From Candidatus Planktophila lacus (GTDB lineage: Bacteria; Actinomycetota; Actinomycetes; Nanopelagicales; Nanopelagicaceae): a stretch of 64,000 bases of DNA. Below are positions 33,727-36,938 of the stretch, in pieces (the stretch's first letter is position 1; each line of letters starts with the position of its first letter). The notes beneath the pieces are model-generated. The model was not told the origin of the DNA. It ran no database searches and saw only the letters and a list, made by a program, of their open reading frames with translations. The DNA lies in the NCBI RefSeq assembly GCF_002288385.1, contig NZ_CP016783.1, forward strand, positions 992,001 through 1,056,000, read 5' to 3'. Position numbers and translations under genes: made by a program.

Positions 33727-33727
<1 letters not shown>
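33041..33727 (-). CDS. mtrA: Response regulator MtrA
   Basis: OmpR-family regulator of 228 residues. The receiver domain has DDDQD near residues 8-12, the phospho-acceptor in DLVLLDVMLPG and the KPF lysine; the winged helix shows LTRLEFDLLVALAKEPGRVFTRDALL and VNVHVQRLRSKVE, nearly identical to MtrA of mycobacteria. Its start overlaps the ahcY stop by one base and its stop is followed one base later by mtrB. Co-transcription with ahcY is therefore likely. Confidence 0.97.
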
Positions 33728-35102
<1,375 letters not shown>

Positions 35103-36476
35103 TTAAGGGATTAATACGAGGATGTCTAGGTCGCCACGGATCATGTTAAGTACATCATCTCGAACCTTTTTCATACGGGCTTCCGTGGAAGCCTCAACGT
35201 TGAGTCGAAGGAGGGGCTCAGTATTTGACGCACGTAGGTTAAACCACCAGGTATCGCCACTTATCGTCAGCCCATCAAGGTGATCGGCTGCTACGCCATC
35301 TTTCTTGAGATAAATCTCTTCAACGTGCTTCATCGCAGCGTTTGCATCTGCGACTTCAGAATTGATTTCGCCACTAGAGATATATCTTGAATAAGGTTTA
35401 AGAAGAGTCGAAAGTGAACCCTTCGCTTCGCCGAGAGCTGCAATGGCGTGGAGTGCTGCCAACATTCCAGAATCTGCTCTCCAAAAATCTTTGAAGTAGA
35501 AATGTCCAGAATGCTCTCCGCCAAAAACTGCTCCGGTATCTGCCATTAATTGCTTTATATAAGAATGGCCAACGCGCGAACGAATAGCCTTCCCGCCTTT
35601 TTCTTCAACAATTTCAACGACTGCTCGGGAAGAAATTAAATTGTAAATAATATTTGATCCTGGATATTTCTTTAATTCACGATCTGCAATTAAAGCCGTG
35701 AGAGTAGATGGATTTACCAAATCTCCGTTTTCATCGACTAAGAAGCATCGGTCGGCATCGCCATCAAATGCTAATCCGATATCTGCCTTATGTTTTTTAA
35801 CCGCCTTCTGCAAATCTTTCAAATTCTTGGGATCTATTGGATTGGCTTCATGGTTTGGGAATGTGCCATCTAACTCAAAATACATCGGAATTACTTCGCA
35901 GTTAAGTCGGTCAAAGACCGCTGGAGCGGTGTGTCCAGCCATTCCGTTTCCAGCATCAATGACCACCTTTAGCGGGCGGATCTCTGATAGATCAACCAAT
36001 GAAAGTAGATGATCTACATATGAAGAAAGTAAATCCTGCTCTGACTCTTTACCTACGCTTCGAAAATCAATTGGAGATCCTTCACTTACAAATCGCTCAA
36101 TAGTTAAGAGCCCCGACTCTTTTCCTATTGGGCGGGCTCCACTTAAGCAGAGTTTGATCCCGTTGTATTCGGCTGGATTATGGCTGGCGGTAAACATCGC
36201 CCCAGGGAAATTGAGTTTGCCTGCTGCAAAATAGAGCATGTCGGTAGATGCCAACCCGATACGGATTACATCTAAACCTTGCGAGGTCACTCCTGCTGAA
36301 AAAGCATCGGCGAATAATGGTGATGAAGGGCGCATATCTTCGCCGATAACAACTGTTCCGGGTTCACGTTCTTGTTGCAGGAATCTGGCAAAGGCAACTC
36401 CTGTTGCAAATGTAAAGTCAGCGGTTATTTCAACATCAACTAATCCGCGAATGTCATAAGCTTTAAATATTGGAAT
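35103..36476 (-). CDS. Phosphomannomutase/phosphoglucomutase with probable ATT start
   Basis: Interconverts hexose 1- and 6-phosphates for sugar nucleotide synthesis. Phosphoserine motif TASHNPAEYNG, metal loop DGDADRC, sugar-binding GGEHSGHF and the C-terminal phosphate loop RASNTEPLLR are all present. The first in-frame ATG (36335) would lose about 47 residues, including the conserved IFKAYDIRG. That block is encoded upstream in the same frame, which opens after a TAA at 36495-36497 and contains no ATG, GTG or TTG. An ATT at 36474-36476, five bases after AAGGAAG, gives 457 residues, the normal family length, and is proposed as the start. It lies downstream of the DUF3499 gene. Confidence 0.85.
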   Translation of the reverse strand: MPIFKAYDIRGLVDVEITADFTFATGVAFARFLQQEREPGTVVIGEDMRPSSPLFADAFSAGVTSQGLDVIRIGLASTDMLYFAAGKLNFPGAMFTASHNPAEYNGIKLCLSGARPIGKESGLLTIERFVSEGSPIDFRSVGKESEQDLLSSYVDHLLSLVDLSEIRPLKVVIDAGNGMAGHTAPAVFDRLNCEVIPMYFELDGTFPNHEANPIDPKNLKDLQKAVKKHKADIGLAFDGDADRCFLVDENGDLVNPSTLTALIADRELKKYPGSNIIYNLISSRAVVEIVEEKGGKAIRSRVGHSYIKQLMADTGAVFGGEHSGHFYFKDFWRADSGMLAALHAIAALGEAKGSLSTLLKPYSRYISSGEINSEVADANAAMKHVEEIYLKKDGVAADHLDGLTISGDTWWFNLRASNTEPLLRLNVEASTEARMKKVRDDVLNMIRGDLDILVLIP

Positions 36477-36518
36477 TTTCTCTTCCTTCGCTAATTAATC
36501 CGGAGAAGTAGCAAGAAT

Positions 36519-36896
36519 CTAAGACGGGACTGCGCGTAAGTGTCCGCGCCGTCCAAGTGATGCGTTATCGGTTGTAACAGGATCCCCGTTTTGATCTTGC
36601 ATCGACTCATGGTTTGCAGCAACTTCACGGACTGCATCTGCAATTGCCATCAGATCATCTTCGGATGGTCCAAGGCCTGCCTGCGAAGACTCTTCCTTGA
36701 TTACTGTCCAACCATTAGGAACGGTTAGGCGCTTTCCATGTGCTTCGCAGAGATCATATGAATGTGGTTCTGAATAAGTAGCCAGTGGGCCAAGCACTGC
36801 TGTTGAGTCCGCATAAATATAAGTAAGCGTCATCGAAGCCATGCTTCGGCAACTTACCCGCGAACAACTGCGCCCTGTGCGCGCCAACTTACTCAT
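36519..36896 (-). CDS. DUF3499 family protein
   Basis: A 125-residue protein of the actinobacterial DUF3499 family. The conserved core is ATLTYIYADSTAVLGPLATYSEPHSYDLCEAHGKR-like: here TLTYIYADSTAVLGPL is at about residues 23-38, with cysteines in the CSRVSC pair and LCEAH that may bind zinc. The C-terminal half is variable. Function unknown. The neighbourhood (phosphomannomutase and WhiB2-GT2 genes) is conserved in actinobacteria. Confidence 0.9.
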   Translation of the reverse strand: MSKLARTGRSCSRVSCRSMASMTLTYIYADSTAVLGPLATYSEPHSYDLCEAHGKRLTVPNGWTVIKEESSQAGLGPSEDDLMAIADAVREVAANHESMQDQNGDPVTTDNASLGRRGHLRAVPS

Positions 36897-36938
36897 GACG
36901 CTAAGGCTAGTGGTTGGGTAGCAAAAAAACTGGGATTG

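Follow-up and report, generated by a model that had tools for sequence, protein, structure and literature searches.

The window, a stretch of 64,000 nucleotides from the 1.41-Mb single-contig genome of Candidatus Planktophila lacus, carries manB on its minus strand, between a DUF3499 gene upstream and an adenosylhomocysteinase-like gene downstream, which we take to be ahcY (Table 1). When translated from the ATT considered below, manB consists of 457 codons (35106-36476) followed by a stop codon. All four PGM/PMM domains (PF02878, PF02879, PF02880 and PF00408) were over the Pfam cut-off, and the translation contains the catalytic TASHNP motif, as TASHNPAEYNG. Twenty-four PDB sequences matched ManB; the best matches, the phosphoglucomutases 5kl0, 6nn2 and 5bmn, aligned from residue 1 and the PMM/PGM 1k35 from residue 3, the alignment to the solved PMM/PGM enzymes being full length. 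Judged by its sequence, the product is a bacterial phosphomannomutase/phosphoglucomutase of the alpha-D-phosphohexomutase superfamily.

Table 1. Features of the manB locus in window coordinates
Feature	Position	Strand	Evidence
manB, phosphomannomutase/phosphoglucomutase, 457 codons plus stop when read from ATT	35103..36476	-	Pfam PGM_PMM domains I-IV, PDB matches
Proposed start codon ATT	36474..36476	-	Same codon in all 17 clade species; counterpart outside the clade ATG (G027, G031) or GTG (G049)
Shine-Dalgarno-like AAGGAAG, 5 nt 5' of the ATT	36482..36488	-	Anti-SD GATCACCTCCTTTCT in the 16S rRNA of the same genome
In-frame TAA closing the manB frame upstream	36495..36497	-	Sequence reading
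First ATG in the manB frame; codes for an internal Met (GEDMRPSS), not the start	36333..36335	-	ATG in 17/17; preceding 46 codons with pN/pS 0.05
DUF3499 gene, upstream of manB	36519..36896	-	Pfam PF12005; stop 42 nt before the ATT
Adenosylhomocysteinase-like gene, downstream of manB	33727..35007	-	ORF list

On the minus strand, the TAA upstream of manB is followed by the codons TTA GCG AAG GAA GAG AAA and then by ATT CCA; ATA TTT AAA and GCT TAT GAC ATT CGC GGA come next and encode the conserved IFKAYDIRG block, which thus lies between the TAA and the first in-frame ATG. The initial annotation had reported that this interval holds no ATG, GTG or TTG and that the ATT stands five bases after AAGGAAG, and direct reading agreed on both points, coordinates included. 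In the list of open reading frames manB opens at 36335 only, with 410 aa, so an ordinary gene caller would cut 47 codons off the gene. A syntenic comparison of 72 matched reading frames singled out manB, which combines 53 codons from the frame opening to the first standard start with a conserved N-terminus. Other flagged frames, some of which were inspected singly, had shorter gaps or overlapped with neighbouring genes or a tRNA; DUF3499, flagged in the same comparison, has a conserved ATG and was set aside.

The manB gene was found in 132 of the 135 genomes of the genus (E <= 1e-150), and its start region was read in 85 loci, one per species genome, along with a few named duplicates. Seventeen of these loci form what we call the ATT clade (G000, G068, G148, G121, G058, G001, G048, G134, G012, G123, G006, G171, G129, G030, G173, G180 and G125), and 68 lie outside it; an eighteenth row, L033, is a named copy of the G173 sequence. 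Among the congeners, locus L032 (G065) has an upstream region identical to that of Candidatus Planktophila versatilis MMS-IA-79 (L040). In all 17 clade species the open frame before IFKAYDIRG lacks a standard start, and an ATT stands two codons before the block, in the pattern ATT-TCA/CCA-AT[ACT]-TTT. All 68 congeners read outside the clade have an ATG or GTG near the block, at a distance of 2, 4, 6, 7 or 8 codons upstream. The close relatives G027 and G031 carry ATG exactly where the clade has ATT (ATG TCA ATH TTT AAA), with the same predicted N-terminus, MSIFKAYD, and G049 has GTG at the homologous codon. One clade is therefore characterized by the same AUN codon throughout and by the lack of an apparently usable ATG, GTG or TTG. 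The 457 residues counted in the initial annotation are indeed obtained from the ATT; its argument that this is the family length is weak, because in most of the clade the gene runs to 448 codons when counted from this ATT, the extra residues forming a C-terminal tail.

A gene tree constructed by a quick method, with the first codons left out, grouped the 17 sequences as a single clade with an SH-aLRT of 100 and required one change of the trait. Synonymous sites are well diverged within the clade (pS 0.58-0.69), which makes the retention of the ATT informative. When the 17 genes are aligned by codon, the ATT never varies; the next Ile codon is ATA in 12 genes, ATC in four and ATT in one, and the two codons 5' of the ATT vary freely. 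Among the 23 all-Ile columns, only the start column and one other are all-ATT, and an invariant codon was found in only 16 of 317 invariant-residue columns; given that further all-ATT column, codon invariance alone would not prove a start. Non-clade congeners encode mostly Ala or Pro at the position of the ATT, and also Thr, Ser, Met and others, so an Ile there is not demanded by the protein. Outside the clade, ATT occurs at this position once only, inside an ATG-started frame (L144), which we judged coincidental. The single origin and the full retention in 17 species, even though a single base change from ATT to ATG would bring back a standard start, would favor selection rather than mere tolerance of a presumably low manB initiation rate.

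The sole conserved stretch before the ATT is a near-invariant purine block kept at 5-6 nt from it; the block reads AGAGAGAAG or, in the subclade to which the window belongs, GAAGGAAGA, with AAAAGGAAA in G134. The 16S rRNA of G000, G052 and G123 ends in GGATCACCTCCTTTCT, with the exact 3' end assigned by analogy, and AGAGAGAAG is imperfect against the anti-SD, with one G-U pair and one mismatch. Paired with the anti-SD, the block gives duplexes of -6.1 to -8.2 kcal/mol across the clade (median -6.6), and the median at the starts of the 68 standard-start congeners is -1.5 kcal/mol. Since shuffled versions of these 18 purine-rich bases form duplexes that are no weaker, the case for the block rests on its conservation and on the comparison with congeners, which point to a putative Shine-Dalgarno-like sequence of moderate strength at proper spacing.

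In Actinobacteria, TANNNT located about 12 nt before the start is a common promoter of leaderless genes (PMC3160421). Sixteen sister-clade species contain TTTACGAT or CTTACGAT six nt before the manB ATG (L011-L017, L019, L027, L032 and L122-L127), and this leaderless-type promoter is absent before manB in the ATT clade. The sister species and the ATT clade would differ in initiation mode at one gene inside one genus. The clade may have changed from leaderless AUG to SD-led AUU, or may descend from an SD-led AUG gene like that of G027. Across the clade, DUF3499 lies on the same strand and its stop falls 34-49 nt upstream of the ATT; with no leaderless-type promoter in front of manB there, the two genes probably share one transcript, in which manB would be the second cistron. 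The ATG of DUF3499 itself is preceded, at about 12 nt, by TAGCCT (window 36897-36909, minus strand), where relatives keep CACTAGCCTTA or CACTAATCTT, and the gene is probably leaderless.

Different readings of the start region were weighed against initiation at the ATT. If manB were read from the internal ATG, the N-terminal 47 codons would be untranslated or vestigial; this ATG is the first standard start, as a gene caller would report, and is kept in all 17 species. Its Met, however, belongs to the protein sequence GEDMRPSS, and a start there would drop the beginning of domain I including KAYDIRG, which every homologue and every matched solved structure contains. Moreover, codons 2-47 of clade manB have a pS of 0.58 and a pN of 0.028 (ratio 0.05; rest of the gene, 0.12), which indicates that the 46 codons from the ATT to the internal ATG are translated and that the latter is not the start, leaving this reading very improbable. 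The short distance to the DUF3499 stop might suggest that manB is fused or frameshifted onto that gene, or begins at another non-standard codon upstream, and G173 (also L033) does have a CTG two codons before the ATT, which, found in one species, we judged coincidental. Such an upstream start is hardly credible in view of the in-frame stops present 7-15 codons before IFKAYDIRG in 17/17 species, of the distance from the DUF3499 stop to the ATT, which takes all three values modulo 3 and so spans all three frames, and of the codons upstream of the ATT, which differ between species. The region 5' of the ATT shows intergenic substitutions and frame-changing indels in the clade, and a one-base deletion between the purine block and the ATT in L005, relative to the window, argues against a ManB protein that extends into the upstream frame.

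A start two codons later, at the AUA, AUC or AUU of IFKAYDIRG, comes closest to initiation at the ATT, as the codon is likewise AUN and only two residues would be lost. The initial annotation had listed this ATA as a second option, which is now disfavored: the later codon is not conserved, it stands 11-12 nt from the purine block vs 5-6 nt for the ATT, and two close relatives carry ATG at the earlier position. We regard initiation there as quite unlikely. Nothing that we found speaks for an error of sequencing or assembly confined to one genome, or for a recently formed pseudogene there. The initial annotation had proposed to check relatives for ATT or a standard codon at the same place, ATG there together with a lone misassembly being what would refute it; G027 and G031 do have ATG at the homologous codon, yet ATT is common to all 17 sampled species of the lineage and is therefore not a sequencing error. 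Four of the 17 genomes (G000, G068, G121 and G123) are single-contig, branch lengths on the tree are substantial, and the manB frame is intact throughout, so that error and pseudogene alike are excluded for practical purposes.

We thus favor, with a probability of about 0.9, the reading that clade manB is translated from AUU by the ordinary initiator tRNA, aided by the Shine-Dalgarno-like block, and that this start arose once and has been kept since; the probable AUU initiation proposed in the initial annotation is supported by an ATT without a standard start in every clade species. The standard start would have been lost in a single event and the resulting AUU retained afterwards. With the 30S subunit positioned by the purine block, fMet-tRNA would pair imperfectly with AUU, and the N-terminus produced would be fMet-Ser/Pro-Ile-Phe-Lys-Ala-Tyr-Asp-Ile-Arg-Gly. 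We infer that AUU is the codon actually used and that initiation on it is weak: IF3 would discriminate against it, rejecting most AUU complexes, and ManB synthesis would be low and IF3-dependent. The AUU start probably restricts the amount of ManB enzyme made. We know of no tie between manB and translation initiation. A more tentative idea, which we consider possible but rather doubtful, is that manB is IF3-controlled, with the supply of mannose-1-phosphate/glucose-1-phosphate for envelope glycans tied to the translation-initiation state, an arrangement fixed once in the clade, where manB would be an SD-led second cistron without a leaderless AUG promoter.

In all 19 congeners whose infC locus is full-length, inside and outside the clade, infC begins with ATC preceded by AGGAG (L188-L206, of which L205 is the window's genome). 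This use of ATC across the genus indicates that Planktophila cells very probably initiate at AUN codons already. In the ATT clade, the infC frame has no standard start at all. The initiator tRNA gene is identical in clade and sister species (G000, G121, G123, G052 and G040), which rules out an altered initiator tRNA as the cause of the ATT start. Together, the infC ATC and the unchanged initiator tRNA suggest that no special machinery would be needed for the AUU of manB. IF3 differs little between the two groups: clade and sister species share no residue at five columns, of which one falls in the ragged C-terminal tail, and we saw no link between these differences and the ATT start.

Infrequent start codons of this kind are best known from infC, the gene for IF3, which has an AUU start in E. 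coli. It starts with ATC in Streptomyces (PMC5472188) and with AUA in S. aureus (PMC13009471), and its repression by IF3 has been documented (PMC5472188, PMC13009471). With infC, manB would share a conserved AUN start behind a Shine-Dalgarno sequence; however, infC controls its own factor, whereas manB encodes a metabolic enzyme. The AUU start of E. coli pcnB limits expression (Binns and Masters 2002, as cited in PMC13009471); pcnB is, like manB in our reading, an AUU-started gene that does not encode an initiation factor, although it is another gene in another phylum. In Streptomyces, sigR has a GTC start, for which IF3 repression was shown experimentally (PMC5472188). Like manB, sigR is actinobacterial, with a non-canonical start conserved within the genus and misannotated by gene callers; unlike manB, whose start is proposed from sequence comparison, it uses GTC and is a regulatory gene. 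In S. aureus, cvfC1 (AUU) and ccpN (AUA) reach, in poor medium, about 10% of the expression obtained with AUG (PMC13009471). These clade-conserved starts beside extended Shine-Dalgarno sequences resemble the one proposed for manB, but these Firmicutes genes have a long, strong Shine-Dalgarno sequence, and that of manB is moderate.

In the open-access literature, we found no paper on an ATT start of a phosphomannomutase gene, or on start codons in Planktophila. The manB gene would join infC, pcnB, sigR and cvfC1/ccpN among the known genes with non-canonical starts, and on comparative grounds it is an unusually well supported candidate for an AUU start in a metabolic gene. To our knowledge, established AUU-start genes are very few, and because gene callers exclude AUU, they have been discovered singly. 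Here, a housekeeping enzyme has kept such a start through the divergence of 17 freshwater species with small genomes, which makes the clade a natural setting in which to ask whether such near-cognate codons persist because of a regulatory role or are simply tolerated. A search for clade-wide conserved N-termini without a standard start suggests itself as a cheap route to further cases. In current annotations, ManB of the clade species is probably 47 residues too short. Two metagenome-assembled genome records titled Bifidobacterium breve, L033 and L045 (isolates MiH-22jul19-253 and MH-09jul19-317), carry freshwater-actinobacterial manB genes that are 86% and 71% identical, respectively, to that of the window, and these records look mislabelled.
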